A DNA stretch of 64,000 bases from positions 20,959-84,958 of the forward strand of contig JACPTF010000013.1 in the NCBI GenBank assembly GCA_016192915.1, given 5' to 3'. The notes under the pieces are model-generated. The model did not search any database and had not been told where the DNA came from. It saw nothing but the letters and a program-made list of their open reading frames with translations. The DNA is from Candidatus Woesearchaeota archaeon (GTDB lineage Archaea > Nanobdellota > Nanobdellia > Woesearchaeales > UBA10216). This document shows, in pieces, positions 3,778 through 55,504 of this stretch (position 1 is its first letter; the number at the start of each line of letters is the position of its first letter). The position numbers were made by a program, and so were the translations under genes.

Positions 3778-3921
3778 CCCAAGTCGCAAATCGGGTTGCG
3801 CCCGATTGCTCATTCCGCCGTCCGCGGAATTGCGCTGTTGCGACTGGGCCCAATCGGCCGCTGCAAATCCTGCTTTGGCAGGATTGCACAGTCGGCTACT
3901 GCCGACTTGTGCCGATTTGGG
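3778..3921. repeat. Family 2 twin cloverleaf palindrome at the DUF1385 3' end
   Basis: A 144-base element made of two adjacent units. Unit 1 has outer arms CCCAAGTCGCA and TGCGACTGGG enclosing hairpins AATCGGG-CCCGATT and ATTCCGC-GCGGAAT. Unit 2 has outer arms CCCAATCGGC and GCCGATTTGGG enclosing AATCCTGC-GCAGGATT and AGTCGGC-GCCGACT. It is read in frame at the end of the minus-strand DUF1385 gene as NPNR..IGPSR and supplies its stop. Confidence 0.8.
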
Positions 3922-4802
3922 TTTCTCAGAACAGCCTTAAGAGCTGCAACAGCCACAGCAATCTGGCCAGCATCAGGCTCCTTGGTAGTTATGCGCTGAA
4001 GCAGCAAGCCAGGAAACACCAGCAGCCTCATGAAGATGTTTTTCTCAAATTTTGCGCCCAAACGAAGCAGCTCATACGAAACACCAGCTATAACTGGAAA
4101 AAGCACTATCCTTGACAGCAGCTTCGGAATAAATCCTTCCGGATTAACAAGCGAGAAAACGAAAATGCTCACAATTACTACGATAAGAAGGAAGCTAGTC
4201 CCGCAGCGGGGATGCATAGCGGGATATTTCCTAATCTTCTGCGGCAGAAGCTGCTCACTGTGCTCATAAGCGTGAATGGTCATGTGCTCCGCTCCATGGT
4301 ACTGGAAAAGGCGCTGCACATCCTTAAAGAACGAAATGAAGACCAGATAGCTGAGAAAAGCAAGCAGGCGAAGCACGCCATCAACAACATTGAACCAAAA
4401 GGGGTTATTTTTCACAAAAAAATTAGCCAGGAACAGCGGAGCAGCCACAAAGAGAGCAATGGCAAGAACAATCGCCACAGCAAAAGAAATAAACATCTCC
4501 TTGCCACCAAGGACGTCCTTGCCCTTTTCATCCTTGCCACCAGCAACGTTCGCAGAGAAAGCAAGGGCCTTAAAGCCGATAACGAGCGTTTCATAGAGAA
4601 CGCCAACGCCCCGCACCAGCGGCCACCTGAAAGGCTTCACTCTTTCCGAAAGAGGCTTAATCACCCACTTCTGCGTTATTATCCTGCCTGATTCTGCCCT
4701 CACGGCAACCGCAGTCCTTTCCTTGCTGCGCATCAGGACGCCCTCAATAATGGCCTGGCCGCCAACAAGAAGCAACTGATTTTTAGTGTCCGGAACTTTC
4801 AT
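3810..4802 (-). CDS. DUF1385 (YqhQ-like) membrane protein with a repeat-encoded tail
   Basis: About 330 aa. The N-terminal motif VGGQAIIEGVLMRS and the later HGAEHMTIHAYE and HPRCGTSF are conserved DUF1385 signatures (possible metal-binding residues), with several membrane segments between about residues 95 and 245. The function is unknown in the family. The ATG at 4802 is preferred over the GTG at 4817 because the TATA box at 4826-4836 lies 28 bases upstream. The last roughly 35 residues, from NPNRHKSAVADC onward, are encoded by the family 2 palindrome and are probably not ancestral; the stop codon is also inside it. Confidence 0.85.
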   Translation of the reverse strand: MKVPDTKNQLLLVGGQAIIEGVLMRSKERTAVAVRAESGRIITQKWVIKPLSERVKPFRWPLVRGVGVLYETLVIGFKALAFSANVAGGKDEKGKDVLGGKEMFISFAVAIVLAIALFVAAPLFLANFFVKNNPFWFNVVDGVLRLLAFLSYLVFISFFKDVQRLFQYHGAEHMTIHAYEHSEQLLPQKIRKYPAMHPRCGTSFLLIVVIVSIFVFSLVNPEGFIPKLLSRIVLFPVIAGVSYELLRLGAKFEKNIFMRLLVFPGLLLQRITTKEPDAGQIAVAVAALKAVLRNPNRHKSAVADCAILPKQDLQRPIGPSRNSAIPRTAE

Positions 4803-4825
4803 AAAAGCAAAAGCCACGGCTTCAG

Positions 4826-4858
4826 TTATATAAATATTGGGGAAAATTATTTAAAATT
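4826..4858. promoter_or_regulatory. Divergent TATA boxes for DUF1385 and alaX
   Basis: TTATATAAATA (4826-4836) is placed 28 bases from the minus-strand ATG at 4802. TTATTTAAAATT (4847-4858) is placed about 30 bases from the plus-strand ATG at 4883. Two separate boxes thus serve the divergent pair. Confidence 0.6.
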
Positions 4859-4882
4859 GCGGCAAATGGCTTAATCCGCAAG

Positions 4883-5587
4883 ATGACTCAAACAATTTTC
4901 CTAGACGACTGCTACGCCAAAGAGTGCGACGCAGGTGTCGTGGCTGCTGAAGGCAGCAAGGTTGAGCTCGACAAAACAGTGTTCTGCTACGAAGGGGGAG
5001 GGCAGCCGTCTGACAACGGGAAGGTAACATGCAATGGCAACGAATACAATGTTGTTGACGTCAAAAAAGAATCCGGAAAGATAATGCACTACCTTGACAA
5101 GCCAGGGCTGAAGCAGGGAGATAATGTGCACTGCACTGTTGACTGGGAGCGAAGGCACAAACTCATGAGGTACCATACGGCAGCCCACATTTTATCAGCA
5201 ATAATTAACAAAAACACAGGAGCGCTGATAACAGGAAACCAAATCTCGCTTGACCAGGCAAGGTTTGACTTTGACCTTGAAAACTTTGACCGCGCAGTGA
5301 TTGAGGAGTGCGTGAAAGAGGCAAATGCCGCAATAGGCAGAAATATGGCTGTTAAAATGTATTTTTTGCCAAGGGAAGAAGCGATGAAAATACCGGGCGT
5401 TGTCAAGCTCGCGAACGCCTTGCCGCCGCAAATACAGCAGCTGCGGATTGTTGAGATTGGTGACGTTGACATCCAAGCCGATGGCGGAACGCATGTAGGC
5501 AACACCTCAGAGATTGGCACTGTTGAGATTATCAAGATGGACAACAAGGGCAAGAGCAACAGGAGGATTTACTTCAGGCTTGTGTAG
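4883..5587 (+). CDS. alaX: Alanyl-tRNA editing protein AlaX
   Basis: A 234-aa stand-alone editing domain that hydrolyses mischarged Ser- or Gly-tRNA(Ala). It carries the metal motif HTAAH (residues 98-102), GTHVGNTSEIG (202-212) and the glycine-rich N-terminal segment CYEGGGQPSDNG typical of AlaX-M proteins. In AlaRS the last motif reads CGGTH; here the Cys position is Asp (D200), so the zinc ligand set may differ. Leaderless start from the TATA box at 4847-4858. Confidence 0.88.
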   Translation: MTQTIFLDDCYAKECDAGVVAAEGSKVELDKTVFCYEGGGQPSDNGKVTCNGNEYNVVDVKKESGKIMHYLDKPGLKQGDNVHCTVDWERRHKLMRYHTAAHILSAIINKNTGALITGNQISLDQARFDFDLENFDRAVIEECVKEANAAIGRNMAVKMYFLPREEAMKIPGVVKLANALPPQIQQLRIVEIGDVDIQADGGTHVGNTSEIGTVEIIKMDNKGKSNRRIYFRLV

Positions 5588-5599
5588 AGGCGGTACGAA

Positions 5600-5818
5600 A
5601 TGACATCACGGGAAATAGTAAACGGTGGAGGCAACATGGTTATTGTCCGAAACTTGAACGAACAACCAGAACAAGACGAAAGGAATGATGCTATTAAGGC
5701 CGCAGTCGCCAATTTGCAAAAGAAAAGGAGACGAAAGAAAAGGATACAAAACATATTTTTTGGATTTGTTGTTATTGTTCTGGCAGTAATTGCGTTTATT
5801 GTGCTCAAGAAATTCTAG
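5600..5818 (+). CDS. Hypothetical single-span membrane protein
   Basis: A 72-aa protein with a charged N-terminal half, a basic stretch KKRRRKKR, one C-terminal hydrophobic segment (FFGFVVIVLAVIAFIVL) and KKF at the end. It looks tail-anchored or type II. The start may be 5600, or the ATG at 5636 (MVIVRNLNEQ), which is preceded by GGAGG. It follows alaX by 12 bases and may be co-transcribed. No family recognised. Confidence 0.55.
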   Translation: MTSREIVNGGGNMVIVRNLNEQPEQDERNDAIKAAVANLQKKRRRKKRIQNIFFGFVVIVLAVIAFIVLKKF

Positions 5819-5830
5819 TGCGTTTTGTGC

Positions 5831-5913
5831 GCCGGGCCAGGGACTTGAACCCTGATGGCTGTGGAGCCACTCGTTTCTGAAACGAGCGCGTCTACCGATT
5901 TCGCCAGCCCGGC
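5831..5913 (-). tRNA. tRNA-Leu (CAG)
   Basis: Class II tRNA of 83 nt. It has acceptor arms GCCGGGC and GCCCGGC, D-arm region GAAATCGGTAGAC, anticodon stem CTCGT-ACGAG with loop TTCAGAA (anticodon CAG), long variable arm TGGCTCCACAGCCA and T-arm CAGGGTTCAAGTCCCTG. The base after the acceptor stem is G, whereas archaeal tRNA-Leu usually has A73, which is mildly unusual. No CCA is encoded. Confidence 0.93.
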
Positions 5914-6074
5914 TTTGCACAAACGCTTGATTAATTTGGATTTTATTGTTCATAAGTTTTAGCCAAGAATTTGAGGAAAATTTGCGAAAGTTGTGGAAGA
6001 AATACCGACAATGCCAAAACTCTTTCGGCTTTTTATGAATTTTCCGAAAATCTTTCAACAAAACCGAACAAAGG

Positions 6075-6085
6075 TTTAAATATAA
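6075..6085 (+). promoter_or_regulatory. TATA box of a putative small RNA
   Basis: TTTAAATATAA is centred 27 bases before 6107, the exact point where similarity to the antisense strand of tRNA-Leu begins. Confidence 0.5.
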
Positions 6086-6106
6086 GTTATGCCATAATAA
6101 AATCAT

Positions 6107-6190
6107 ATGGCTGTGGAGTAACCTTCGGGTTCGGCTACCGATTTCGGAGCCCGATTCCCAAGTCGTGCAAAGGCACGATTTGGGCTTTTT
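6107..6190 (+). ncRNA. Putative small RNA complementary to tRNA-Leu, or a tRNA-Leu remnant
   Basis: Three blocks match the strand opposite the tRNA-Leu gene: ATGGCTGTGGAG (variable arm), CTACCGATTTCG (D-arm) and AGCCCG (acceptor). Between the first two, the anticodon arm is replaced by the hairpin AACC-ttcg-GGTT. The unit has its own TATA box and ends in a GC-rich hairpin followed by TTTTTT. Alternatives are a decayed minus-strand tRNA-Leu copy or a broken leaderless gene (MAVE then stop). No C/D box motifs are seen. Confidence 0.4.
6157..6184. repeat. Family 2 single hairpin
   Basis: CCCAAGTCGTGC-aaag-GCACGATTTGGG followed by CTTTTTT. The arms match the family 2 palindromes found inside genes; with the T-run it could also end the putative small RNA. 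Confidence 0.65.
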
Positions 6191-6312
6191 TCTCATTTTT
6201 GGTTGAGCGTTTTTCCGGGGGCGCTTTTTGCCGCAGCAAAAAGGGTCCACTGGACACTGGACACGTGCCAGGACAAGGTATTTAAGCCAGAGTAGCAGTT
6301 ACTGCAGCTGCA

Positions 6313-7104
6313 ATGATTCAAAGCTCGTTCATATTTCTTGAAAAAATAACCGCTGCAAGGGAGAGGAAACTCTGGCAGCAGGGTATACTGAGCTGGGATG
6401 ATTTTTTGAAAACAGAGAGGATAAGAGGAATATCAACAGCTGCAAAGAAATACTACGACCGCAAAATAATTGAGGCAAGAAAGCAGCTTTATCTTGAGAA
6501 CAGCAACTATTTTGCCAGCTTAATGCCGCAGGCAGAGCACTGGCGGCTTTATGAGTTCTTTAAGGAAGAAGCGGTTTACATTGACATCGAGACAGACGGC
6601 CTCAGCGACAACAATGATGTGACGCTTGTCGGACTGTTTGACGGCTTTGACACAAAAACAATGATACGAAGAGTGAATCTGGACTGGCAGCGGCTGCGGA
6701 AGGAGCTGGAGAAGTACAGGATTGTTGTGACTTTTAACGGCAGCGTTTTTGACTTGCCGTTCATGGAGAGAAGGTATGGCAAGGTGCTGCCAAAGGTTCC
6801 GCACGTTGACTTACGCTTCTGCTGCAGCCGCATAGGACTAACCGGCGGCTTGAAAAAGATAGAAAAGGAACTCAACATCCACAGAGGCAACTCAATAGTT
6901 GAAGGGCTGTACGGCGGGGATGCTGCACAGCTTTACAGGATGTGGAGGGGAAGCGGCGACGACTACTACCTGCAGCTGCTGGTAGAGTACAATGAAGAGG
7001 ACGTGATTAACCTGAAAAGAATTGCCGAATATGCTTATGCAAAGCTAAAGACGCAATGCCTGCAACAGCAACCAATAAAAATAGCAGGTGTAAGTGATAG
7101 GTGA
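6313..7104 (+). CDS. Ribonuclease H-like 3'-5' exonuclease (YprB-type)
   Basis: A 263-aa predicted DEDD-type exonuclease. An N-terminal helical region is followed by the RNase H fold: YIDIETDG (D91, E93), a second motif VTFNGSVFDLPFMERRY, HVDLRFCCSRIGLTGGLK, and the last acidic motif YNEEDVINL. This matches the COG3359/YprB family of structure-specific nucleases; the substrate is unknown. The start is supported by TATA GTATTTAAG at 6278-6286. The gene ends within the start of the following Nudix gene, so the two are probably coupled. Confidence 0.82.
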   Translation: MIQSSFIFLEKITAARERKLWQQGILSWDDFLKTERIRGISTAAKKYYDRKIIEARKQLYLENSNYFASLMPQAEHWRLYEFFKEEAVYIDIETDGLSDNNDVTLVGLFDGFDTKTMIRRVNLDWQRLRKELEKYRIVVTFNGSVFDLPFMERRYGKVLPKVPHVDLRFCCSRIGLTGGLKKIEKELNIHRGNSIVEGLYGGDAAQLYRMWRGSGDDYYLQLLVEYNEEDVINLKRIAEYAYAKLKTQCLQQQPIKIAGVSDR

Positions 7105-7106
7105 TA

Positions 7107-7535
7107 ATGAAAGAAACCTCTGCAGGCGCAATCATCTTCAGGGTTGACAAGAAAAGCAAGAAACCGAAGTACTTGCTGCTGCACTACGGATCGGGGCACT
7201 GGGACTTTGTCAAAGGCCACATTGAGGGCAGCGAGACAGAGGAAGAGACGCTTCTCAGGGAGGCAAGGGAGGAGTCTGGGCTGACCGAATTACACATAAT
7301 AAGCGGGTTCAGGGAAAAGGTAAGCTACTTCTACAGAAAAGAAGGAGAAACAGTTCCAAAGGACGTAATATTCCTGCTGGCGCAAACGGCAGCTGCTGAG
7401 AAAGAAGTGAAGCTGTCATTTGAGCACTCAGAATACGTTTGGCTGGAATTTGCAGCTGCAGTGAAAAAAGTGACGTATGGCAACAGCAAGGAAGTCCTGA
7501 AAAAAGCTGACAGTTTCCTGAAAAAGTTTCAGTAG
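7107..7535 (+). CDS. Nudix hydrolase (Ap4A-type)
   Basis: A 142-aa Nudix protein. The Nudix box runs GHIEGSETEEETLLREAREESGL, i.e. G-x5-E-x7-REAREESG, with all catalytic acidic residues present. The N-terminus SAGAIIFR..LLLHYGSGHWDFVKGH is typical of diadenosine tetraphosphate hydrolases. ATG at 7107 is preferred; an in-frame GTG at 7101 would overlap the upstream stop. The likely role is clearing nucleotide metabolites, but the substrate is not proven by sequence. Confidence 0.85.
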   Translation: MKETSAGAIIFRVDKKSKKPKYLLLHYGSGHWDFVKGHIEGSETEEETLLREAREESGLTELHIISGFREKVSYFYRKEGETVPKDVIFLLAQTAAAEKEVKLSFEHSEYVWLEFAAAVKKVTYGNSKEVLKKADSFLKKFQ

Positions 7536-7618
7536 CAGCGAAGATTGTCCGAATAAATTGTAAATTTCCGAAAATTTTGCGGCTTTGTCCGTAAATTTTC
7601 CGACGAGAAAGGCGCAAA

Positions 7619-7628
7619 GCTTATTAAG
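7619..7628 (+). promoter_or_regulatory. TATA box of the 46-aa and 105-aa membrane gene pair
   Basis: GCTTATTAAG is centred 27 bases before the ATG at 7650. Confidence 0.5.
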
Positions 7629-7649
7629 AAGTTCTACAATACTACCATT

Positions 7650-7790
7650 ATGGCGGCAAACTATGAAATGCCAGGAACAGAACACAGGCTTACATTCAAG
7701 AAGTTTGGCTATGATAATCTTTTAATGATGGCTTTACTTGCCATAGCTGCAATTTCGCTACTAATATGGCTGATAAAGGGTGTTGAGTGA
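7650..7790 (+). CDS. Small membrane protein of 46 aa
   Basis: A short frame starting MAANYEMPGTEHRLTFKKFG with a single C-terminal hydrophobic span (MMALLAIAAISLLIWLI). It has a TATA box at the standard distance, and its TGA overlaps the ATG of the next membrane protein (TGATG), which supports a real two-gene unit. No family recognised. Confidence 0.6.
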   Translation: MAANYEMPGTEHRLTFKKFGYDNLLMMALLAIAAISLLIWLIKGVE

Positions 7791-8107
7791 TGGACCAGCA
7801 GGATATACTTGAATTTATGGGAAAGTTCTCACACATAATATCCGTAATAGGATTTATCGTTGTGATTGTCCTGATTTGGTATAAAATTACGGGACATTCC
7901 CCAACAGCCGATCAGATTATAATAACGTTTGAGACAGCCATCCTAGCAGCCATATTCGGATTTATTTATTATTTCGCAGATTTTAAAGGCGCTACCCAGT
8001 CGGATGTTCGGAAATTAAGAGAAGAAGCATCTGATATTAAGCGAATAATCTCCCAAATGCAGCTTCAGCTTATGAAAATAGAGGTGAAACTCTCACACAG
8101 AAGGTAG
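7790..8107 (+). CDS. Membrane protein with C-terminal coiled coil
   Basis: A 105-aa protein with two membrane segments (about residues 16-32 and 45-66) and a C-terminal heptad-like helix (VRKLREEASDIKRIISQMQLQLMKIEVKL). The start overlaps the stop of the upstream 46-aa gene by one base, so an ATG at 7790 is preferred over a GTG at 7787. The topology suggests a small membrane-anchored coiled-coil protein. No family recognised. Confidence 0.65.
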   Translation: MDQQDILEFMGKFSHIISVIGFIVVIVLIWYKITGHSPTADQIIITFETAILAAIFGFIYYFADFKGATQSDVRKLREEASDIKRIISQMQLQLMKIEVKLSHRR

Positions 8108-8112
8108 GTGTG

Positions 8113-8562
8113 CTACTTTTCTCTAAGTAGTGAGCTCTTGTACATTTCCGGCTTATACGCCGGCATCCTCACGATATCAACGCTTACCCCCCTCTCCTGC
8201 AGCTTTTCCTTAATCTTGTCCGTGAAAAAGGTCTGGTCGTAGCCGAGGCAGATAACTTGCGGCCTTTCGTCCTCAACAACTTTTAACTTATCTCCGGGAT
8301 TGCCGAGAACGACTTTATCGGCGATGCCAAGCTGCTTCAAATGGCGAACTCGCTCGCTTTCGCTGTGCAGCGGCTGCTTCTCCTTTACTTTTTTAACCGT
8401 TTCGTCCCGGGCAACAACTACAACTAAATAATCACCCAGCTTCTTCGCCTCAGAGAGGTAAAACCTGTGGCCCTCATGCAAAACGTCAAAGGTGCCGAAG
8501 CACATGACCTTCTTTGGCGCGGCAAAGAAGCTCAACCAAGAAATGCACATGACCTTTTTCAT
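8113..8562 (-). CDS. ribL: FAD synthase RibL with an in-frame hairpin insertion near the N-terminus
   Basis: Archaeal FMN adenylyltransferase (cytidylyltransferase-like fold) making FAD. Visible motifs are FGTFDVLHEGHRFYL (HxGH-type nucleotide-binding motif), VVVVARDETVKK and the C-terminal KPEMYKSSLL. About 149 aa from the ATG at 8562, whose TATA box lies 27 bases upstream. The N-terminus reads MKKVMC, then ISWLSFFAAPKKVMC, then FGTFD. The 15 extra residues are encoded by a 45-base insertion that contains a family 1 palindrome and is flanked by 12-base direct repeats. The HxGH core is untouched. Confidence 0.85.
   Translation of the reverse strand: MKKVMCISWLSFFAAPKKVMCFGTFDVLHEGHRFYLSEAKKLGDYLVVVVARDETVKKVKEKQPLHSESERVRHLKQLGIADKVVLGNPGDKLKVVEDERPQVICLGYDQTFFTDKIKEKLQERGVSVDIVRMPAYKPEMYKSSLLREK
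8500..8556 (-). repeat. Family 1 element with 12-base direct repeats inside ribL
   Basis: The palindrome occupies 8503-8543 (CATGACCTTCTTTGGC, then GGCAAAGAAG and CTCAACCAAGAAA on the plus strand). The direct repeats GCACATGACCTT lie at 8500-8511 and 8545-8556, exactly 45 bases apart, so the reading frame is kept. Either a target-site duplication or a repeat-mediated duplication would give this layout. Confidence 0.75.
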
Positions 8563-8584
8563 GAAGCCGGGGAGGACAGCAACC

Positions 8585-8594
8585 TTTTTAAACC
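8585..8594. promoter_or_regulatory. Single bidirectional TATA box between ribL and rpl10e
   Basis: TTTTTAAACC is centred 27 bases from both start codons: the plus-strand ATG at 8616 and the minus-strand ATG at 8562. Its near-palindromic core TTTAAA could recruit TBP in either orientation. Confidence 0.55.
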
Positions 8595-8615
8595 TGCTGC
8601 AAAATCCTTTCAGGC

Positions 8616-9191
8616 ATGGCAAAGCTGAGAAGGGCAAGGACGTACAGGGATATTGACAGGCCCTACACGAGGGTGAGCAAGTTCAGGAAGAAATCATTCA
8701 TCAGGATGAGCCCGCAAAGGAAGGTAACGAGGTATGACATGGGAGATGCCTCAAAACAGTTCAGCTATACATTAGACCTGATACCAATAGACTCGCTGCA
8801 GATAAGGCAGGAAGCAATGGAATCAGCAAGGATGACGAGCATTAGGCTGCTTGAAAAGAAGCTTGCCAAGAACGCATTTCACTTCAAGATACTGAAGTAC
8901 CCATACCACATTCTCAGGGAGAAATCACTCGCGCTTGGCGCAGGAGCTGACCGCGTAAGCACAGGCATGCAAAAGCCATTTGGAAAGCCGATAGGGTTAG
9001 CCCTCCAGATAAGAGCAGGCGAGATGTTCTTCAGAGTCCAGGTTGACAAGCCAGCAATAGAAACAGCGAGGCTGGCGCTTCAAAGGGCATCAAAAAAGAT
9101 GCCGTGCTCATTCTCGATAATAGTAACGCGCAACGAGATACCAGCCCAGGACAAGGAAGCGGCAGTTGCTCCAGCAGCAGTTACAGCATAA
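8616..9191 (+). CDS. rpl10e: 50S ribosomal protein L10e (uL16)
   Basis: A 191-aa uL16-family protein of the large subunit. The archaeal signature start MAKLRRARTYRDIDRPYTR is intact, followed by the conserved LREKSLALGAGADRVSTGMQ-KPFG region and C-terminal alpha-beta segments. It ends with an alanine-rich tail (KEAAVAPAAVTA). The start is leaderless, 27 bases from the shared TATA box. Confidence 0.95.
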   Translation: MAKLRRARTYRDIDRPYTRVSKFRKKSFIRMSPQRKVTRYDMGDASKQFSYTLDLIPIDSLQIRQEAMESARMTSIRLLEKKLAKNAFHFKILKYPYHILREKSLALGAGADRVSTGMQKPFGKPIGLALQIRAGEMFFRVQVDKPAIETARLALQRASKKMPCSFSIIVTRNEIPAQDKEAAVAPAAVTA

Positions 9192-9314
9192 TCATTTCCG
9201 GATACTCTAACTAGATTCTATCTAAATTAGCCGCAGCAAAACCGATTTCCGAAACTTTTTTATAGCCAAAAGATAAAAAGTGAAAGCAGGGAAAAAGGGT
9301 GAGTCGGGGAGCGA

Positions 9315-9713
9315 ATGGAACAGAACATACAGACTGTTGTTGTAAAGCTCAAAAAGGCCAGGGTTGCAAATTTCTCTGCCGCTGAAAACACGGTAAGCAT
9401 AGCTGTTGCCATAAACGACGGCAAGGACAAGGGGCATAACTGGAAAGCAAGGATAACAGAGCCCAGGCTTATGGCAGCCAAGCTGCTCACAGAACTCATA
9501 GCCCTGGAAGAAGGCGAACACGCCGAATTTGACGGAGAGGTCATGGCGAACAGCTCAACCATCCTTCTTTACGAAAGTGCAAGGACAGAAACAGCGCTTG
9601 TTGACTTCTTCCAGACAATCTACAGCAAAGCAAGGAAGATTAGGAACGCAACAAAAAGCGACGGCTACCTGAACATTGTGGCAGACCTCCGCAGAACGGA
9701 AACTACATTTTAA
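9315..9713 (+). CDS. Hypothetical 132-aa protein
   Basis: Soluble protein with no recognised domain (MEQNIQTVVVKLKKARVANF, later EHAEFDGEVMANSSTILLYE). A TATA-like CTTTTTTATAG lies about 55 bases upstream, and GGTGAGTCGGGGAGCG precedes the ATG, so it may have a short leader with a weak Shine-Dalgarno sequence. The following membrane gene starts 17 bases after its stop, suggesting co-transcription. Confidence 0.65.
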   Translation: MEQNIQTVVVKLKKARVANFSAAENTVSIAVAINDGKDKGHNWKARITEPRLMAAKLLTELIALEEGEHAEFDGEVMANSSTILLYESARTETALVDFFQTIYSKARKIRNATKSDGYLNIVADLRRTETTF

Positions 9714-9729
9714 GGCAGGGGCAGAAAGA

Positions 9730-17002: not shown

Positions 17003-17761
17003 ATGAAAATTTTAAACGCAGCTGCGGCAATCACAATTATTACAATATTTATACTCGTAGCCGCTGTCGTTGTTGCAAGCCCTGAGAAAACCGACAAGTT
17101 CGGCTGCCACAAGTGCATGAAGGACTGCGAAAAATACAGCCTTGTAAAAAACGAGTATCACTGCCACGGCTCAGTCAGCGTGCAAAGCCAAAACATACAA
17201 ATAGCGCCAAGGATTTACGGCAACACGACATACAGGAGGGTAGCGCGGATAATAGACGGCGACACACTGACTGCCTATTTCAACGGAAACCAGCAGGTCA
17301 TCAGGCTTTTGGGCATTAACGCACCGGAAACAAGCCCGAAAGAAAAGGCGGAATGCTACAGCTCTCAGGCAACCGAGCAGCTGAAAAAGCTAGTAGCCAC
17401 TAAATTCGTTCTACTGGAAAAGGACAAGCTCCAGAACCCAAATCGTGCAGGCACGATTGGGCCCAGTCGCAGCAGCGACTTGGGTGATGATAAAGACAAG
17501 TACGGAAGGCTGCTAAGGTATGTCACAGTCATAGGCACGAACGTTTCTGTAAACGAGGAACTGGTAAATGGCGGCTTTGCAAAAGCCTACCCTTCACTCA
17601 CAACAAAAGTGGAAGAGTACAAGAAGCTTGAGAACGCGGCCAAGGAGAAAAAGCTCGGGATGTGGGGAGAATGCTTCAAGGAAAAGAAGAACGAAACGCT
17701 GACAAGGCTTTTCCCGCTTAAGGGGAAAAGGATAGACAAATACGGGGAGCACCAGGGATAA
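17003..17761 (+). CDS. Secreted/anchored SNase-type nuclease with an in-frame palindromic insertion
   Basis: A 252-aa thermonuclease-fold protein. An N-terminal membrane segment is followed by a Cys/His-rich region (CHKCMKDCEKYS, YHCHG) and the nuclease core: RVARIIDGDTLTAYF, VIRLLGINAPE, DKYGRLLRYV and NEELVNGGFAKAY, including the catalytic D, R and E positions. In the loop just before DKYGRLLRY there is an extra stretch NPNRAGTIGPSRSSDL, encoded by the 48-base family 2 element at 17437-17484. A GAGGT Shine-Dalgarno sequence precedes the ATG. Confidence 0.88.
   Translation: MKILNAAAAITIITIFILVAAVVVASPEKTDKFGCHKCMKDCEKYSLVKNEYHCHGSVSVQSQNIQIAPRIYGNTTYRRVARIIDGDTLTAYFNGNQQVIRLLGINAPETSPKEKAECYSSQATEQLKKLVATKFVLLEKDKLQNPNRAGTIGPSRSSDLGDDKDKYGRLLRYVTVIGTNVSVNEELVNGGFAKAYPSLTTKVEEYKKLENAAKEKKLGMWGECFKEKKNETLTRLFPLKGKRIDKYGEHQG
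17437..17484 (+). repeat. Family 2 twin hairpin inside the nuclease gene
   Basis: Hairpin 1 is CCCAAATCGTGC-ag-GCACGATTGGG and hairpin 2 is CCCAGTCGC-agca-GCGACTTGGG. Length 48 bases (16 codons), no stop in the used frame, translated as the NPNR..IGPSR peptide. Confidence 0.85.
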
Positions 17762-40047: not shown

Positions 40048-40170
40048 AAACCTTTTTACCGCTGCGGCGGCAAAAACACAAGTCGAGATACGCTCGACTG
40101 TGCCCAGGCGACAGCGGTCGCCTTGGGGCTTTACCAAAAAACGGCACTCAAAAGCTTGACCAAAAAACCA
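40048..40170 (+). repeat. Composite family 1/family 2 element downstream of tRNA-Pro
   Basis: It begins AAACCTTTTTACCGCTGCGG, includes a family 2 twin hairpin at 40077-40129 (AGTCGAG-atacg-CTCGACT and CCCAGGCGAC-agcg-GTCGCCTTGGGG), and ends with two tail-like copies (TTTACCAAAAAACGG and CTTGACCAAAAAACC). This suggests a family 2 unit inserted into a family 1 unit. Confidence 0.6.
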
Positions 40171-41604: not shown

Positions 41605-41706
41605 GCAGCACAAGTCGGCAGTAGCCGACTGTGCAAATGTCGGCAACGGCCGACAATCCTCAGCTCGCCGCTGAGGAATCCTGCCAAAGCAGGATTTGCA
41701 GCTGCA
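41605..41706. repeat. Four-hairpin cluster homologous to the DUF1385 element
   Basis: Hairpins in order: AGTCGGC-agta-GCCGACT, TGTCGGC-aacg-GCCGACA, CCTCAGC-tcgcc-GCTGAGG, AATCCTGC-caaa-GCAGGATT. The reverse complement matches 3868-3911 at its two ends, with the middle two hairpins as an extra insertion. Confidence 0.7.
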
Positions 41707-41736
41707 AAAAGGTTAAATACGCATGACCTTTTTGCC
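41704..41736. promoter_or_regulatory. TATA box inside an inverted repeat upstream of the DRG gene
   Basis: GCAAAAAGGT and ACCTTTTTGC form a perfect 10-base inverted repeat enclosing TTAAATAC. The predicted transcript would begin in the following family 1 element, not at the GTPase start. Confidence 0.4.
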
Positions 41737-41800
41737 GAAACCAAGTCGTCAATGACGACTGGTCCCATCGCCTATGGCGATGTGGAAAGGTCAATCAAAA
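41722..41800 (+). repeat. Composite family 1 element with family 2 twin hairpin inside, DRG leader
   Basis: The outer arms CATGACCTTT and AAAGGTC with tail AATCAAAAA enclose CCAAGTCGTC-aat-GACGACTGG and CCCATCGCC-tat-GGCGATGTGG. This is a clear case of one element within the other. Confidence 0.75.
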
Positions 41801-49456: not shown

Positions 49457-49478
49457 GGCATTGCACATATAAAGTGCT

Positions 49479-49682
49479 ATGCAAATAGAAATTCAAAAAG
49501 ATACGTCAGAAAAGCTTGAAAAAGCGGCAAGGCTTTTGGGACAAAAAAAAAATGAGCTAGCAAACAGGGCCATACTACTTTATTTGGATAACATTATCAA
49601 ACACGCCGCTCTTAAAAAAGAGATGAAGGGGTGGGATTTCTTAAGCGACGAAGCGTTGGCGAATTTTGAAAAAGCACTATGA
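49479..49682 (+). CDS. Ribbon-helix-helix antitoxin
   Basis: A 67-aa protein with the RHH layout: a beta strand MQIEIQKDTSEKLEKAARLL followed by two helices (KKNELANRAILLYLDNII) and an acidic C-terminal part (MKGWDFLSDEALANFEKAL) that would wrap the toxin. Its stop overlaps the toxin ATG (ATGA), the usual antitoxin-first order. It probably autoregulates the operon by binding near the TATA box. Confidence 0.8.
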   Translation: MQIEIQKDTSEKLEKAARLLGQKKNELANRAILLYLDNIIKHAALKKEMKGWDFLSDEALANFEKAL

Positions 49683-50005
49683 AAAAAGGTGAAATCTGGC
49701 TGGTAGAGCTGCCGACCACTAACGGCCATGAACAAACAGGCTCTCGCCCGGCTTTAGTTTTAGCAGAGACCGAAGCAAACATAGCTATAATAGTGCCCTT
49801 TACCTCCAACTCACAGGCGCTTAGGTTCAAAAATACCATCGAGGTTAAGCCTTCTAATAGAAACGGCTTGTCATCTGTTTCTGTTGCACTCATCTTCCAA
49901 CTGAGAGCAATTGACAAAAAGAGGCTCAAAACCAAAATCGGGGAGCTAGAAACGCAACTCCTAGAGAAACTGGATGCCATGCTTAGGCAGCTATTGTCGT
50001 TATAA
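49679..50005 (+). CDS. PemK/MazF-family toxin (mRNA interferase)
   Basis: A 108-aa protein. MKKGEIWLVELPTTNGHEQTGSRPALVL is the classic MazF/PemK start with the GS-RPALV motif, followed by NIAIIVPFTSN and IFQLRAIDKKRL (catalytic-type Arg and Ser/Thr context). It would cleave RNA sequence-specifically. It forms a type II toxin-antitoxin pair with the RHH protein. Confidence 0.87.
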   Translation: MKKGEIWLVELPTTNGHEQTGSRPALVLAETEANIAIIVPFTSNSQALRFKNTIEVKPSNRNGLSSVSVALIFQLRAIDKKRLKTKIGELETQLLEKLDAMLRQLLSL

Positions 50006-50030
50006 CCAGAAACAAACTAAGTCAGATCAG

Positions 50031-51866
50031 TTAAATTCCCCACACCGGATTCTCCTTCCGCATCAGCTCAGCGATTTCCCTAAGCAAGTCAACCTCGTCA
50101 GCGGAGAGGTACTGCTTGAACTCCTTGAGCTTCCTGAAGTCGTCCTCGTGAATAAAGCTGAGCATGACATCGCCCTCGTTAAGCTGCCTGCCGATTACAA
50201 CTTTTTCAAGCGAAACAGCAACCTGCTTTCCTTTGCCAGCTGTTGTGACGTTCTCCTTCTCCAGCTGAATCTCCTTAACTGTCGTCAGGGGCTTGCCAAT
50301 TTCAGCAGCTGATGCGGTTGCCTTCATAAGCTGCGCATCAACAGCCAGCGTCCCTGCAAGAATCTCAACCCCGACAATAGCAGGGTTGCTCTGCCTGAAG
50401 GTGTAGCCGCGAAGCAGCTGAACCTTGCAAGGCCTTGCAAGCCTCTCCATTGATTTTGACTCCTGCCTCTGCTTCTCCTGCTGCTGCCATGCAAGGAACT
50501 CGTCCATGATAGAATAGATGACGTTGCCCGTGATTATCTTGACAGCCGGGGGAACTGACCCGGAAATCTCGCTGCCAAGGCTGGCGTTAAAGCCTAGAAT
50601 TGCGGCGTTAAGCGGGCTGCTTTCAGCGTTCGACTCTGCGTCAGCAATGTCCTTCCTTGAGATTTCGCCAATCGATACCGCTTTCACACTGACGCCCTTC
50701 TCGTGCAGCAGCTTCATTAACGCCTCAAGAGAGCCAAGCGTGTCTGCCTTAATGACAATGCCGGAATCGTCAACAGAGAGGCTGAACCCCTCAATCTCCT
50801 TCTGCACCAAGGCCTTTGCAGCCTCAAGCTGCATGCTGCCATAAACAGAGACAACAGGCATTCCCGCAACAGCATTCTCAACGCCAGAGCCAACAATCTT
50901 GACGCCAGTTGCGGCAACGACCTTGTCAACCTGCACAAATTTTGCCTTGCGGTCGCGCATCTCAGCCAATGGAGCTGGCTCAAGCAGCGCCTTGACTTTC
51001 GTGACGACAGGCCCTTCCAAGCCGCCAATGACAACAGTGTCGTTCTTCTGCAAGGAGCCGTCATAAACTATGACGTCAACAGTCGCGCCAAGCCCCTTCT
51101 CCTGCTTGACTTCAAGGACAGTTCCCTTGACTGCCGAATCGGGTGTAAAGTTAAGCTCTGTCTCAAGGAAGCGCTGAGCCAGGCCGGAAACAACAACAAG
51201 GAGTTCGGGAATGCCGATGAGCTTCTTTGCCGAGCACGGAATAATAGCGAGCTGCTTGCGGTAATCGGAAACCCGGTCAAACCTGTCAGAGTCAAAGCCC
51301 GACTCGGCGAATTTGGCAACAAGATTGTAAAGGCGCTTGTCAATCTCCTCCTGCACCTGCGGATTCTGCTTTGAAATTTTTGTTAAAAGCAAATCCTCGC
51401 TGCTGTAGACGTCTGCCCTCCAGCCCGGGACCAAATCCAGTTTGTTGGCAGCAACAATGAATGGGGTCTTGTAGTTTTTCAGGATGTCAATCGCTTCCAG
51501 TGTCTGCGGCATGAAACCCTCATTAATGTCAATGACCAAGATGGCAATGTCAGCAAGAACACCACCGCGCTTCCTCAGCGAGACAAAAGCCGCATGCCCA
51601 GGCGTGTCAATGAGGAGAAGGCCGGGAATTGTAAGGTTAAGCTTCAGCTGCTGCAGCAATTGAGAACATAGCTTCCTAATCACAGAAACAGGCACAATGG
51701 AAGCGCCGATTGACTGCGTAATCTGGCCGGGCTCGGACTTGACAATGGACGTTCCGCGAATGCTGTCAAGCAGGCTGCTCTTGCCATGGTCAACGTGGCC
51801 CAAGACAGTGCAGATGACGGAGCGGAGACGGTTCGCATTACTTGCACTTGCGGCTGTAGCGGACAT
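50031..51866 (-). CDS. infB: Translation initiation factor aIF5B (IF-2)
   Basis: A 611-aa GTPase promoting subunit joining. The G domain has VLGHVDHGKSSLLDSI (G1), LLIDTPGHAAF (G3) and AANKLDLVPGW (G4), followed by domains II-IV with VLEVKQEKGLGATVDVIVYDG and KADTLGSLEALMKLL. The length matches archaeal aIF5B without an intein. TATA GTTTAAAAAC lies 30-40 bases upstream of the ATG. Confidence 0.95.
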   Translation of the reverse strand: MSATAASASNANRLRSVICTVLGHVDHGKSSLLDSIRGTSIVKSEPGQITQSIGASIVPVSVIRKLCSQLLQQLKLNLTIPGLLLIDTPGHAAFVSLRKRGGVLADIAILVIDINEGFMPQTLEAIDILKNYKTPFIVAANKLDLVPGWRADVYSSEDLLLTKISKQNPQVQEEIDKRLYNLVAKFAESGFDSDRFDRVSDYRKQLAIIPCSAKKLIGIPELLVVVSGLAQRFLETELNFTPDSAVKGTVLEVKQEKGLGATVDVIVYDGSLQKNDTVVIGGLEGPVVTKVKALLEPAPLAEMRDRKAKFVQVDKVVAATGVKIVGSGVENAVAGMPVVSVYGSMQLEAAKALVQKEIEGFSLSVDDSGIVIKADTLGSLEALMKLLHEKGVSVKAVSIGEISRKDIADAESNAESSPLNAAILGFNASLGSEISGSVPPAVKIITGNVIYSIMDEFLAWQQQEKQRQESKSMERLARPCKVQLLRGYTFRQSNPAIVGVEILAGTLAVDAQLMKATASAAEIGKPLTTVKEIQLEKENVTTAGKGKQVAVSLEKVVIGRQLNEGDVMLSFIHEDDFRKLKEFKQYLSADEVDLLREIAELMRKENPVWGI

Positions 51867-51917
51867 TTTGACATCATCACAGTGGTGGATTCTGGGACGG
51901 TTTTTAAACGTTTGCAG

Positions 51918-52892
51918 CTAAAACGGCGAATATCTCACCTTCAACGTGGCCGTGAACAACAAGGCCATATAATCTGCAATTATTCCCGGAAACGCCGCCT
52001 TTAGATTCCTCATGAAGCTGTCAAGCTCAAGAGGAGATTGCGCTGCCATCTCAAAATCCATATCAGCAGGGAAGCCAATGCCCTCAACAACGTACAATAC
52101 GAGAGGCTGCTGGGCAAGGTATGCTTTAACAGCTTTAAGATTCTCAGCAGAAGCCACGCTTAAATTCAGGAAAATCTTGTAGTAGCCGTAGCCAAGTTTG
52201 TTGTGGTCAATTCTGGGGCGGTAGCCGCCAATTATCTTTTTCTGCTCAAGCTTCCTAATTCTCGCAGCGACAGCCACAGCCGAAATGCCAAGTTTCTCGG
52301 ACAAAGCTACTAGAGACATTCTGGCATCATCTGAAAGTAAATGAAGTAACTTCTTATCAAGATCATCGAAAATAGCGGGTGTTAATGACTGCGACAGCTT
52401 GAACTCCTCAGTCGCAACTTGTCCGGTAATATACCTATTCTGAAAATGGATTACTGTGGTTGCAATGTTCTCGCTCCTGCGCTTGACAAACTTCCCGAAT
52501 TTTGACATGAACTGCTCAACGAAAACCCTGAACTCGTCAACGCTTTTGGCCCACATGTCGATTAGAAGGTCAAAACTGCCCTGCATCTCAAAAAGCCAGA
52601 ACACCCTGCTGTCGCTTTTGCAGTAGGTTGTGATTTCCTTAACAACCAGTGCAGTAGTGCCCTGCAAGGTAACCAGCAGCCTGCAGTAAAAATAGCCCAA
52701 GGCAGGAGTGTTAACGAGGGCAACGTAGCCGTTGATGACGCCAAGCCTTTCAAGTCTCCTAAGCTTATAATCAACAGTTTGCTTGCTGCTTCCAATCTCC
52801 TTAGCCAATTTAGTCAAACTGTCGCGGGCGTGGAAGTCCAGAGCCAACAATAGCTTCCTGTCCAGTTTGCCAAGCTTAACTATTTCTGCCAT
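51918..52892 (-). CDS. Double Lrp/AsnC-type transcription regulator
   Basis: A 324-aa protein with two Lrp units in tandem: a first HTH (LDRKLLLALDFHARDSLTKL, then GSSKQTVDYKLRRLERLGVI) with a RAM-like domain, and a second HTH (LDKKLLHLLSDDARMSLVAL, then GISAVAVAARIRKLEQKKII) with another RAM-like domain. Fused double Lrp proteins are known in archaea. The effector is unknown. TATA TTTTTATATTTAAAC lies 27 bases upstream. Confidence 0.87.
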   Translation of the reverse strand: MAEIVKLGKLDRKLLLALDFHARDSLTKLAKEIGSSKQTVDYKLRRLERLGVINGYVALVNTPALGYFYCRLLVTLQGTTALVVKEITTYCKSDSRVFWLFEMQGSFDLLIDMWAKSVDEFRVFVEQFMSKFGKFVKRRSENIATTVIHFQNRYITGQVATEEFKLSQSLTPAIFDDLDKKLLHLLSDDARMSLVALSEKLGISAVAVAARIRKLEQKKIIGGYRPRIDHNKLGYGYYKIFLNLSVASAENLKAVKAYLAQQPLVLYVVEGIGFPADMDFEMAAQSPLELDSFMRNLKAAFPGIIADYMALLFTATLKVRYSPF

Positions 52893-52911
52893 AATCTTAC
52901 AAAATCTAGTT

Positions 52912-52961
52912 TAAATATAAAAATATTTTGTTTTGTCAAAATTTTTGATAAATAATTAGAT
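52912..52961. promoter_or_regulatory. Divergent promoters of the Lrp and methyltransferase genes
   Basis: A minus-strand TATA (TTTATATTTAAAC, centre about 52919) faces the Lrp gene, and a plus-strand GATAAATAATTAGATAAAC (centre about 52960) faces the ATG at 52988. The short AT-rich gap would also suit autoregulation by the Lrp protein. Confidence 0.45.
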
Positions 52962-52987
52962 AAACATAAGCTACTATTTAGTAGTAA

Positions 52988-53812
52988 ATGAATTACCTCG
53001 ATTATGTGCGGAGTCAAGTCACAAAAGAAGACTGGCGCCTGCTTAAAAGTAGAAGAGACATAAACCTAGACGCGGCAGTATTATATGGCATGTGGGCAGA
53101 TTTTGTAAACTTTGAAAAAAGGAGAAGGACAGAAATCCCTTTCCTTGTCACACGTCTTGCGGAATATGATAATCCAAGAATATTTGACGCTAGTCTGGGG
53201 TCAGGAGCCACCACTTTTGGTTTAAAGCTGGCAGGTCTCGAGAAAATTGTTGCGAACGAGACAGATTCTCACCTTGCAAATTTCGCAAAAAAAGAAGCAA
53301 AAAGGCTGGGGATAGATTGGAGCATGATAACAGTCACTTCTCACGACTGGAGAAAGCTTCCGGAAAGCCTTGCAGAAACGTTTGATGCAGTCGTTTCTAC
53401 TGGCAATTCCTTGACATATCTTTTTAAAAAGGGAGATCAGCTCGCCGCCTTGCAAAATTTTAGGGATGTACTAAAGCCTAGAGGGAAACTCATAATTGAT
53501 GAGAGGAACTATGCTGAGCACTTCCTCAAAGCTCCTGATGGTTCAAAGTTCAGGTGGTCCGGTGATTTTGTTTACTGCGGCAAGGATAGAATCGCAGTCC
53601 ACCCGATACACATCTCGCAAAGCATGGTTGTGGTTGAGTATGCCCACCTAGACGGCAGGAAGTCACATCTTGCGCTTTATCCTTTCAAAAGAGGAGAGCT
53701 CAAGGGCTTGCTGAGAGAAGCGGGGTTCAGAGAAATATCAATGTTTGGTGATTACCGGCCTAATTTCAGGCCTCAGGACCCGGAATTCCTTACTTATGTG
53801 TGCTGCAAATAA
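52988..53812 (+). CDS. Class I SAM-dependent methyltransferase (glycine N-methyltransferase-like)
   Basis: A 274-aa protein. The SAM-binding motif I is IFDASLGSGATTFGLKLAG, with TFDAVVSTGNSLTYL as motif II-III and VLKPRGKLIIDERNYAEHFL after it, a pattern close to GNMT/sarcosine methyltransferases. The substrate cannot be fixed from sequence. It is divergent from the double Lrp gene. Confidence 0.8.
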   Translation: MNYLDYVRSQVTKEDWRLLKSRRDINLDAAVLYGMWADFVNFEKRRRTEIPFLVTRLAEYDNPRIFDASLGSGATTFGLKLAGLEKIVANETDSHLANFAKKEAKRLGIDWSMITVTSHDWRKLPESLAETFDAVVSTGNSLTYLFKKGDQLAALQNFRDVLKPRGKLIIDERNYAEHFLKAPDGSKFRWSGDFVYCGKDRIAVHPIHISQSMVVVEYAHLDGRKSHLALYPFKRGELKGLLREAGFREISMFGDYRPNFRPQDPEFLTYVCCK

Positions 53813-53814
53813 AT

Positions 53815-54219
53815 TTAGTAGCGCAGCATTCCCTTCCCAACCAGAAAAGGCAGTATCTGCTTCTTGGCAATTGGGGTAAGGAAAGGGTTAATTGCATCGG
53901 CTGCAGATATCCACAGCAGCTCCTCAATCTCCGAAGACGCCTTTGGCTCCCCAACTATTTCGCCAGCAAAAAGGTCGATTGCAACCCTGGATTTGCCATC
54001 TGAAGTGAAGTCCTCAAAGCGGCCAAGCAGGGTGAGAGAGGCGTCATCAACGCTGCAGCCAATCTCCTCAAGAAGCTCCCTCCTGAGAGCTTCTACAGCA
54101 GACTCACCCTTCTCAGGCTTCCCGCCAGGCATAAGGAAGTCAGGGCTGCCGCGCTTCCTTACAACAAGAAGCTTGTTATCCCTAACAATCACCATTGCTG
54201 ATTTCTTTATGAGCTTCAT
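53815..54219 (-). CDS. Nudix hydrolase
   Basis: A 134-aa Nudix protein (MKLIKKSAMVIVRDNKLLVVR). The Nudix box GGKPEKGESAVEALRRELLEEIGC is complete (G-x5-E-x7-RELLEEIG). The C-terminal region is compatible with an ADP-ribose or 8-oxo-dNTP-type enzyme, but the substrate is open. Start at 54219 from the shared TATA box at 54243-54253; longer frames upstream lack support. Confidence 0.85.
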   Translation of the reverse strand: MKLIKKSAMVIVRDNKLLVVRKRGSPDFLMPGGKPEKGESAVEALRRELLEEIGCSVDDASLTLLGRFEDFTSDGKSRVAIDLFAGEIVGEPKASSEIEELLWISAADAINPFLTPIAKKQILPFLVGKGMLRY

Positions 54220-54242
54220 TAAAGCAGCGGTTGAAGCAACAT

Positions 54243-54253
54243 CTTTATTAAAC
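54243..54253. promoter_or_regulatory. Single bidirectional TATA box between the Nudix and trm1 genes
   Basis: CTTTATTAAAC is centred 27-28 bases from both the plus-strand ATG at 54275 and the minus-strand ATG at 54219, the same geometry as at 8585-8594. Confidence 0.5.
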
Positions 54254-54274
54254 TGTGCATCACTTTCGGCAGCT

Positions 54275-55504
54275 ATGGGAAAGAAACACGGAATAGTTGT
54301 TGAGGGAAAAGCCAAGCTAGCCGTACCAAAATACGGCAGGAAGGCCGTGTCCAGCAGGATGCCTGTTTTCTACAATCCCGTCATGAAGTCAAACCGCGAT
54401 ATAACGATTCTTCTTATGGAAGCTGCAGCTAAACTTTACGGCATAAAAAAGTGGGCTGTTGCAGACCCAATGGCGGCAACAGGCATTCGCGGGATAAGAA
54501 TGGTGCTTGAGCTGGAAAACAAGAACATTGAAGGGATAAAAATGAATGATTACTCTGATGCTGCCGCTGCACTGATAAAGAAAAATATGCGGCGAAACAG
54601 GATAAAAACTGGGGGAAAAATATCTGTCACGGTAAATGAGGCAAACAAGTTCCTGCTGAACAACAAGCCTTTCAACTACATTGACATTGACCCCTTTGGC
54701 TATCCGGGGCTGTTTCTGGATACAGCTGTCAAGAGGCTGCGGCACAACGGAATCCTCGCTGTGACAGCAACCGACACAAGTGCTTTAGCTGGAACAGCCG
54801 TTGCGGCATGCAGAAGAAAGTACCTTGCGACACCGCTAAGGAACGGCTTCATGCATGAAACCGGGATAAGGATACTGATACGGCTTGCGCAGCTTATTGG
54901 GGCAATGCATGAAAAAGCGCTCACACCGGTTTTCAGCTACTACAAGGACCATTACATCAGGGCATTCTTGCTTTGCAGGACAGGCAGCGGCAGATGCGAC
55001 GACGTATTGTCGAAGCACAAAGAAATTCTTTATTGCGACAGCTGTTGCGAAAAAAAGATTGGCGAAGGCGGAATTAACCCCTGCTGCAGTAATTGCGGGA
55101 AACAAATGCTGAAGGCGGGGCTGTTGTGGGCTGGAAACCTGTTTGACAGAAAGTTAGCTGTTAAAATGGTATTGGCTGCTGCGAACCCAAATCGAGCAAA
55201 AAGCTCGATTGGGCCCCGTCGCCTCAATGGCGACGTGGGAAACAGATACGGTGACGAAAAAATAAAAACATTCCTCAAAGTAGTTGCTGAAGAGGCTGCC
55301 GGCGAAGGAAAATGCGGCGCTGGATTTTACGCGATAGAAGACGTATGCGAGAAGCACGGGATAGGGCAGCAGCCAAAAACAACACAAGTCATAAAAAGGC
55401 TGCAGCAAAAAGGTTATAATGCGTCCCAAACGCACTGCACAACGACAGGGGTAAAGACAAATGCTCCGCTGAAGGTATTTTTGGCTGTAGTTAAAGGCAA
55501 ATAA
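54275..55504 (+). CDS. trm1: tRNA (guanine-26) dimethyltransferase Trm1 with an in-frame palindromic insertion
   Basis: A 409-aa enzyme making m2,2G26 in tRNA. SAM-domain motifs are VVEGKAKLAVP, VADPMAATGIRGIRM, YIDIDPFGYPGLFLDTAV and TATDTSALAGT, and the C-terminal domain has the zinc cysteines YCDSCCEKK and CCSNCGKQM. Between VLAAA and RYGDEKIKTFLK an extra NPNRAKSSIGPRRLNGDVGN is encoded by the family 2 element at 55186-55239. The start is leaderless from the shared TATA box. Confidence 0.92.
   Translation: MGKKHGIVVEGKAKLAVPKYGRKAVSSRMPVFYNPVMKSNRDITILLMEAAAKLYGIKKWAVADPMAATGIRGIRMVLELENKNIEGIKMNDYSDAAAALIKKNMRRNRIKTGGKISVTVNEANKFLLNNKPFNYIDIDPFGYPGLFLDTAVKRLRHNGILAVTATDTSALAGTAVAACRRKYLATPLRNGFMHETGIRILIRLAQLIGAMHEKALTPVFSYYKDHYIRAFLLCRTGSGRCDDVLSKHKEILYCDSCCEKKIGEGGINPCCSNCGKQMLKAGLLWAGNLFDRKLAVKMVLAAANPNRAKSSIGPRRLNGDVGNRYGDEKIKTFLKVVAEEAAGEGKCGAGFYAIEDVCEKHGIGQQPKTTQVIKRLQQKGYNASQTHCTTTGVKTNAPLKVFLAVVKGK
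55186..55239 (+). repeat. Family 2 twin hairpin inside trm1
   Basis: CCCAAATCGAGC-aaaaa-GCTCGATTGGG followed by CCCCGTCGCC-tcaat-GGCGACGTGGG. 54 bases (18 codons), same orientation and same frame relative to the gene as the copies in the nuclease and DUF1385 genes. Confidence 0.85.

Follow-up and report, generated by a model that had tools for sequence, protein, structure and literature searches.

A 64-kb stretch of DNA from a Candidatus Woesearchaeota archaeon (contig JACPTF010000013.1 of assembly GCA_016192915.1, positions 20,959 to 84,958; the whole stretch is hereafter called the window) contains several copies of a short palindromic sequence made of two abutting hairpins, which is referred to here as the twin-hairpin element. 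A first-pass annotation had reported such palindromes, in the same orientation and reading frame, in three unrelated genes encoding an SNase-type nuclease, Trm1 and a DUF1385 protein, and all three are present at the positions given. The features concerned are as follows.

17003..17761, + strand: SNase-domain (thermonuclease) gene with insert (PF00565, E 2.5e-19)
17437..17484, + strand: twin-hairpin element in the SNase gene, 48 bp, in frame, peptide NPNRAGTIGPSRSSDL, residues 145-160
54275..55504, + strand: trm1-family tRNA (guanine-N2) dimethyltransferase gene with insert (PF02005, E 5.3e-94)
55186..55239, + strand: twin-hairpin element in trm1, 54 bp, in frame, peptide NPNRAKSSIGPRRLNGDV, residues 304-321 of the 409-amino-acid reading
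3810..4817, - strand: DUF1385 gene, 3' end inside the nested element (PF07136, E 2.3e-82)
3778..3921, - strand: nested twin-hairpin element at the DUF1385 3' end, 144 bp, with further palindromes in both loops

The copies in the SNase gene and trm1 are, as had been claimed, open, in frame and of lengths divisible by three, and both are absent from congeneric orthologues. The DUF1385 copy had also been taken for an internal in-frame insertion, which did not stand: the reading enters the nested copy at the 3' end of the gene as NPNRHKS... and terminates within it (RTAE*), and the orthologue in stretch L138 reads LKAVLRVR at the same point, followed by a stop codon. The copy takes the place of the C-terminus and provides the stop codon rather than being an internal insertion. 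The common orientation and frame hold for the three window copies and fail as a rule, since copies in genes are read in all three frames (NPNR..IGPSR, PKS..DWAQS and TQI..GPSR..TW) and in both orientations; the agreement among the three is a coincidence.

Build of the element and pairing of its arms

On their own strands, the three window palindromes start with CCCAAATCG, have CGATTGGGCCC(A/C)GTCG in the middle and end in CGAC(T/G)TGGG. The element can be described as two modules in inverted order, H·rc(H'), whose hairpins abut, module H being CCCAA-R-TCG-arm-loop-arm'-CGAY-TGGG with one extra (bulged) A on the outer 5' arm, and both modules could be read in this way in 78 of 113 elements. Constant features are the ends CCCAA/TTGGG, the centre TGGGCCCA and the position of a bulged A or T; the outer words are CCC/GGG, CAC/GTG or CGC/GCG, and no stop triplet occurs in the conserved letters on either strand (read directly). 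Simple copies measure 45-54 bp, including the in-frame window copies of 48 and 54 bp, and elements may be nested, with copies lying within the loops of other copies, as at window 3778-3921; such nested copies reach 93-144 bp. The SNase and trm1 copies fold as two hairpins at the DNA level (z -5.1 and -7.6, respectively).

Modules recur with changed partners. Ten of them are used at least three times each, and the commonest, CCCAAGTCGCTGCTGCGACTGGG, occurs six times with six different partners. A/A module pairs were seen in 0 of 46 cases in the genome of origin (4.0 expected); the search pattern used for the relatives' set demanded ..CCCAG, and A/A pairs are therefore under-sampled there.

The inner arm and loop vary widely between copies and pairing is kept, so that the first-pass statement that the stems differ yet stay paired, with the palindrome being maintained, can be extended to the whole family with strong covariation. 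For the pair counts, halves were chosen without using pairing, only distinct halves were counted, and partners were shuffled 5000 times as a control. At the first variable pair, Watson-Crick pairs were present in 137 of 141 halves, with no G-T pair, compared with 37.7 +- 5.1 (maximum 59) in the shuffles, and all four pair types were used (AT 45, CG 41, TA 29 and GC 22). The second variable pair was Watson-Crick in 104 of 119 (6 G-T; shuffles 46.4) and the third in 32 of 47 (2 G-T; shuffles 19.9). In the alignment, 95.6% of cells were paired, eight pairs showed two-sided changes (75 such cells), and the covariation score was 0.255 (shuffles, 0.069 +- 0.009; slid structures, no more than 0.029); four of the five alignment measures exceeded the controls. 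The missing G-T pairs at the first variable pair point to maintenance of pairing at the DNA rather than the RNA level.

Arms may also differ at one and the same site. The intergenic site 5' of a ProRS-like gene (L053:9452-9502 and L096) has the same short flanks and different but paired arms in two species, and at one site common to three genomes (L051, L142 and L145) the arms differ as pairs. At another intergenic site shared by two species (L035:7695-7742 and L100:2972-3019), the whole element is apparently inverted in place.

Insertion into genes and reading frame

Comparison with orthologues gives the clearest view of the element as an addition. All four congeneric SNase orthologues found lack the insert and are short by exactly 48 bp, and the Trm1 insert is missing in five of five congeneric orthologues, by exactly 54 bp in four and by 69 bp in one (G006, in which a further 15 bp are gone). 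A membrane protein (L049 versus L089) provides a filled/empty pair with a net difference of 51 bp, and further clean pairs were obtained for a metallo-beta-lactamase-fold (MBL) protein, a PAP2 protein, a GT4 glycosyltransferase and a DUF5752-like protein. At the seven readable empty/filled pairs the extra DNA spans CCC to GGG, and no target-site duplication is visible at any of the seven, although 1-2 bp could hide in A or T runs; the seven do not include L103/L038 and L108/L045, which have no readable breakpoints, or the intergenic pairs L134/L041 and L110/L037. In DTD2, two species have copies at different sites, and each is empty where the other is filled. Of 21 in-gene copies, 16 have A as the base immediately 5' of the element (p = 2e-5, taking 30% A as the expectation).

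Copies were listed as in-gene if they had Pfam or orthologue support and an open frame on both sides, which left 23 copies (10 in the genome of origin and 13 in relatives) out of 50 spanning frames first seen, the unlisted ones being short, upstream, or devoid of Pfam or orthologue support. The former are in AspRS, a Toprim (DnaG-type) protein (two neighbouring copies, both in frame), a DUF5752-like protein, a membrane protein, AglB/STT3, FtsY, IleRS, SNase and Trm1. Those in relatives are in GT4, an intein in a PilB3-like ATPase, the CCA-adding enzyme, a glycogen-synthase-like enzyme, a PurL-like protein, a DHHA1 protein, DTD2 (two copies), SecD/F, the MBL and PAP2 proteins, a DUF5752-like protein and a nucleotidyltransferase, whose copy (L135:3391) is spanned by PF00483. 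Support for the DUF5752 label is weak, its match (E 7e-4) falling under the cut-off, and the membrane protein (L049) has no Pfam match. The intein copy (L099:2604-2654) lies in frame within a LAGLIDADG intein, that is, a selfish element inside a selfish element.

Among simple in-gene copies, 21 of 22 have a length that is a multiple of three, compared with 39 of 68 other copies (p = 5e-4); the nested DTD2 copy of 93 bp also complies, giving 22 of 23. Since the in-gene list was partly picked by open frames, the frame test was repeated free of that choice: each of 91 copies was excised from its flanks by a script, and junction-spanning open reading frames (ORFs) of at least 150 amino acids were kept. 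Thirty of the 91 copies leave such an ORF, and 26 of these 30 have lengths that are multiples of three, the exceptions being a copy of 52 bp, an orthologous pair of 49 bp (L032 and L115) and the clustered copy L053:7196; no Pfam match was obtained for the frames of the 49-bp pair or of L053:7196. In 29 of 30 cases the frame is not shortened by the copy, the exception again being L053:7196 (168 amino acids with the copy versus 181 without).

At the protein level, solved relatives of SNase, AspRS (6wom, 1efw) and IleRS (1ile, 8c8w) have no segment of about the insert's length at that position. The Trm1 relatives 3axs and 2dul align poorly beyond the insert, so that orthologues are the better evidence there. 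In the predicted structures, the SNase insert (145-160) is a coil between strands 135-139 and 170-176, with a mean predicted local distance difference test score (pLDDT) of 55 over residues 151-160, and the Trm1 insert (304-321) lies between helices 292-303 and 323-347, contains a short helix at 305-309 and has a mean pLDDT of 47 over residues 311-320. Both window inserts are thus predicted to be floppy loops, of low model confidence, between regular elements.

More distant sequences support the same picture. None of the listed distant SNase or Trm1 homologues shows an element-like peptide, as would be expected from the annotation's view of the segments as extra, and the insert is found in 0 of 43 other close homologues of Trm1. 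It is absent from 37 of 39 close SNase homologues and present in two, P0004 (77% identical) and P0008 (71%), at the same codon. The P0008 protein reads NPNRQQP.. where the window SNase reads NPNRAGT.., which implies, from the protein sequence, that the arms of the first hairpin are different yet paired in P0008. In a tree of 39 SNase proteins built with the insert excluded, each of the three carriers forms a separate, well-supported pair with a sister that lacks the insert, forcing at least three changes of insert state.

Spread among genomes and possible means of movement

The genome of origin (G000; 1.198 Mb, 92.9% complete) is rich in the element, and the expectation that the pattern would recur outside the window was amply confirmed. 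Matches to the centre CGAYTGGGCCCAGTCG with up to three mismatches number 54 forward and 55 reverse (reversed-pattern control, 4 + 4), and the pattern CCCAN{10,40}TGGGCCC gives 33 + 26 matches versus 2 + 2 in the control. Altogether 52 distinct centres were read in the window and in 27 stretches around matches, at least one of which (L057:2441) is likely due to chance; this Woesearchaeota genome contains about 50 copies. A covariance model built from 35 of 61 distinct simple copies yielded 126 matches in the same genome (both strands of near-symmetric elements counted, 150 of 404 first-look candidates scored). It detected the family in all eight genomes of the genus and in three of 11 other genomes of the taxonomic family (G010, G014 and G008), with no matches in the remaining eight. 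Among named public genomes, 54 of 60 matching stretches belong to five Candidatus Woesearchaeota metagenome-assembled genomes, and the other six are single matches in unrelated taxa, which were taken as chance and left out of the counts (L104, L113, L121, L123, L130 and L144), as were 22 elements unreadable to the boundary parser and duplicates by flank. One of the six, L113 (Altiarchaeota), nevertheless folds into two hairpins. G010, which belongs to another genus, has a cousin element that shares the ends and centre but not the stems (stretches L168-L179); of its 11 centres listed, one lies in a gene and is a chance match, and the spanning frames of the other 10 do not exceed 133 amino acids. 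The claim of in-frame insertion into unrelated archaeal genes, in the manner of Rickettsia palindromic elements (RPEs), is thus upheld by the empty sites in relatives and by the occurrence of the family throughout the genome and genus.

The window itself contains three further members of the family.

40077..40127, + strand: twin hairpin with no supported gene, outer words CAC/GTG and CCC/GGG, longest spanning frame 102 amino acids
6157..6184, no strand: single hairpin CCCAAGTCGTGC..GCACGATTTGGG, a fused half-and-half form of the twin element
41609..41633, + strand: single module CACAAGTCGGC..GCCGACTGTG, no ORF of at least 100 amino acids listed there

The single hairpin lies about 240 bp from the window's sole detected tRNA, tRNA-Leu (CAG; 5829-5913). 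Twin hairpins can be enclosed by a second, longer palindrome, GACCYTTTT..AAAARGGTCAATCAAAAA (window 41725-41796; also L108, L045 and L109): a diverged variant with the outer word ACC/GGT occupies the loop of this palindrome at window 41740-41785, and the copy in L045, in the genome of origin, is without the twin hairpin that is present in the loop of L108.

Taken together, we consider it likely that the twin-hairpin DNA, present in about 50 copies and found in frame in genes of which relatives' orthologues lack it, spreads as a folded single strand by means of a host or trans-acting enzyme. Such an enzyme would recognize the CCCAA ends together with the centre, and a copy would move as folded single-stranded DNA. 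Folding would be required for a copy to move or be copied, and arm pairing would persist either because copies unable to fold do not move or because an arm is copied anew from its partner; exchange of arms, or such recopying, may also renew the stems. Selection would purge insertions that break genes, and those that remain would therefore be in frame, tolerated as floppy surface loops.

Several observations weigh against this reading. About 40 of the roughly 50 copies in the genome of origin are outside recognized genes, and the in-gene copy of 52 bp keeps the frame only via a 1-bp difference in the flank. Further pair types in the alignment covariation count (19) are not above the shuffles (19.1). 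The same SNase codon is filled in three separate clades, which would require target preference, losses or short-tract transfer. With regard to the enzyme, three mobilizer profiles were searched, PF01797 (Y1_Tnp), PF00078 (RVT_1) and PF00589 (Phage_integrase): Y1_Tnp was not found in the element-rich G000, G001, G005, G006 and G010, nor RVT_1 in the element-rich G000, G001, G004, G005 and G006. No mobilizing enzyme having been identified with these profiles, movement is read from presence and absence only. Phage_integrase (tyrosine recombinase) occurs in 12 of 12 genomes and 14 of 14 controls and is hence uninformative about the mobilizer. A viral mobilizer was rejected, the sole match in viral contigs being a chance one in a GC-rich stretch with no second hairpin.

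Among the alternatives, movement of REPIN-type elements by a RAYT (Y1 tyrosine transposase) appears unlikely. The build is the same, with an inverted pair of imperfect palindromes and compensatory arm changes (PMC3116915), and the element-rich G004 has one Y1 match over the cut-off (E 1.9e-8). However, Y1_Tnp was not found in the five element-rich genomes named above (of 20 genomes searched, G002, G004, G009, G023 and G024 have it), its best matches sit in the element-poor G002, and the consensus of the element has no GTAG or CGTC foot; for the genome of origin the RAYT link was rejected, as no Y1_Tnp was found at 92.9% completeness.

A little less probable is an origin without any mobile step, in which template switching at replication or repair both made the palindromes and perfected them where they lie. 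The arms that differ yet stay paired at the shared sites described above (L053/L096 and L051/L142/L145) and the rarity of G-T pairs, which fits DNA-level copying, favour this explanation, and nematomorph mitochondrial palindromes have been discussed in such terms (PMC6649704). Nevertheless, dozens of unrelated sites share one set of ends and one centre, and what orthologues are missing is a clean segment of 48-54 bp; local switching is unable to import shared sequence, which counts against it as the origin, and it may still explain arm renewal.

Less probable again is RNA-mediated spread by reverse transcription, a route proposed for the double-hairpin elements of Allomyces mitochondria. It would agree with the two-hairpin build and with the target-site duplication not being seen (PMC2800124 on the Allomyces elements). 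On the other hand, RVT_1 is present in the element-poor G002, G003 and G007 and absent from the five element-rich congeners searched, for which this link was rejected, and no G-T pair occurs among 141 at the first variable pair.

It is very improbable that the peptide never appears in the protein because the element is an intron or is removed in some other way. Archaea cut introns at folded motifs, and the hairpins are strong; removal, however, needs neither a length divisible by three nor an open frame, and the choice-free frame test, the two in-frame neighbouring copies of the Toprim gene and the stop codon that DUF1385 takes from its copy all count against it. Equally improbable is selection for the peptides, for example as a useful SNase loop, rather than their toleration: the same codon is filled in three SNase lineages, but no frame, gene class or peptide is common across genes, 37 of 39 close SNase homologues do without the insert, and the loops are of low predicted confidence.

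Returning to spread as folded single-stranded DNA, we lean, if only slightly, towards a broader proposal, namely that archaea have their own protein-invading palindromes. These would be modular twin hairpins without a known transposase, which insert as folded single-stranded DNA at A-rich sites without duplication, whose arms are swapped and renewed yet remain paired, and which have repeatedly entered one gene at the same codon; as a result, foreign loops of 16-18 residues would be present in core enzymes of a Woesearchaeota genus.

Comparison with known palindromic elements

No archaeal or Woesearchaeota protein-invading palindrome was found among the titles and abstract openings listed from open-licence PubMed Central papers; those found there are from bacteria such as Rickettsia, and from mitochondria. 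In that literature, in-frame coding palindromes have been presented as a peculiarity of Rickettsia and Wolbachia, and the archaeal family would be the second. Its occurrence in archaea with small genomes suggests that short folded DNA invades proteins wherever the host tolerates it. The many species-specific insertions form a set for testing mechanism, target choice and effect on protein function, the mobilizing enzyme is a concrete target, and insertions of 16-18 residues in DPANN proteins should be viewed with caution, as they may be foreign.

RPEs of Rickettsia and Wolbachia are palindromic repeats found in frame in unrelated genes as well as in intergenic regions (PMC10969869, PMC3767692), and both tested properties, a dispersed palindromic repeat family and in-frame location inside unrelated ORFs, are shared by the twin-hairpin element. 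Unlike RPEs, which are of about 100-150 bp (PMC3767692), the twin hairpin measures 48-54 bp and only nested copies reach 93-144 bp. For the most part its compared in-gene sites are species-specific; in Rickettsia, by contrast, an insert is said to occupy one locus across orthologues (PMC3767692). The arms of the archaeal element stay paired, whereas RPE copies lose identity over time (PMC6649704). The archaeal element also differs in having two hairpins and a woesearchaeotal host, in contrast to the Rickettsia or Wolbachia hosts of RPEs.

REPINs, which are tied to RAYTs, are built from two imperfect palindromes in inverted order that show compensatory changes (PMC3116915), and REPs have been noted inside some genes (PMC3733652). 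The element resembles REP, BIME and REPIN sequences in its inverted imperfect-palindrome pair, compensatory changes, many copies and clusters (PMC3116915, PMC3733652). It differs from REPINs in that it ends in CCCAA/TTGGG with no GTAG/CGTC tag, that no RAYT was found in the genome of origin, and that copies repeatedly lie in frame in core genes. Unlike miniature inverted-repeat transposable elements (MITEs), it shows no visible target-site duplication at the seven readable pairs, within the 1-2 bp that A/T runs may hide.

Allomyces double-hairpin elements reportedly consist of two tandem hairpins of variable sequence. The twin-hairpin element is like such mitochondrial elements in both respects. 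The Allomyces mitochondrial DNA elements produce no duplications, and some copies of sponge repetitive hairpin elements lie in genes without a frameshift (PMC2800124); both, unlike the present family, belong to organelle genomes, with no archaeal case. The mitochondrial coding palindromes of Nematomorpha have perfectly paired arms within coding genes (PMC6649704), but both of their arms encode conserved regions of the gene itself, whereas the twin hairpin is an extra segment with shared ends. With RPEs compared by description, the twin-hairpin element resembles an RPE in behaviour and a REPIN in build, and it lacks defining features of each.

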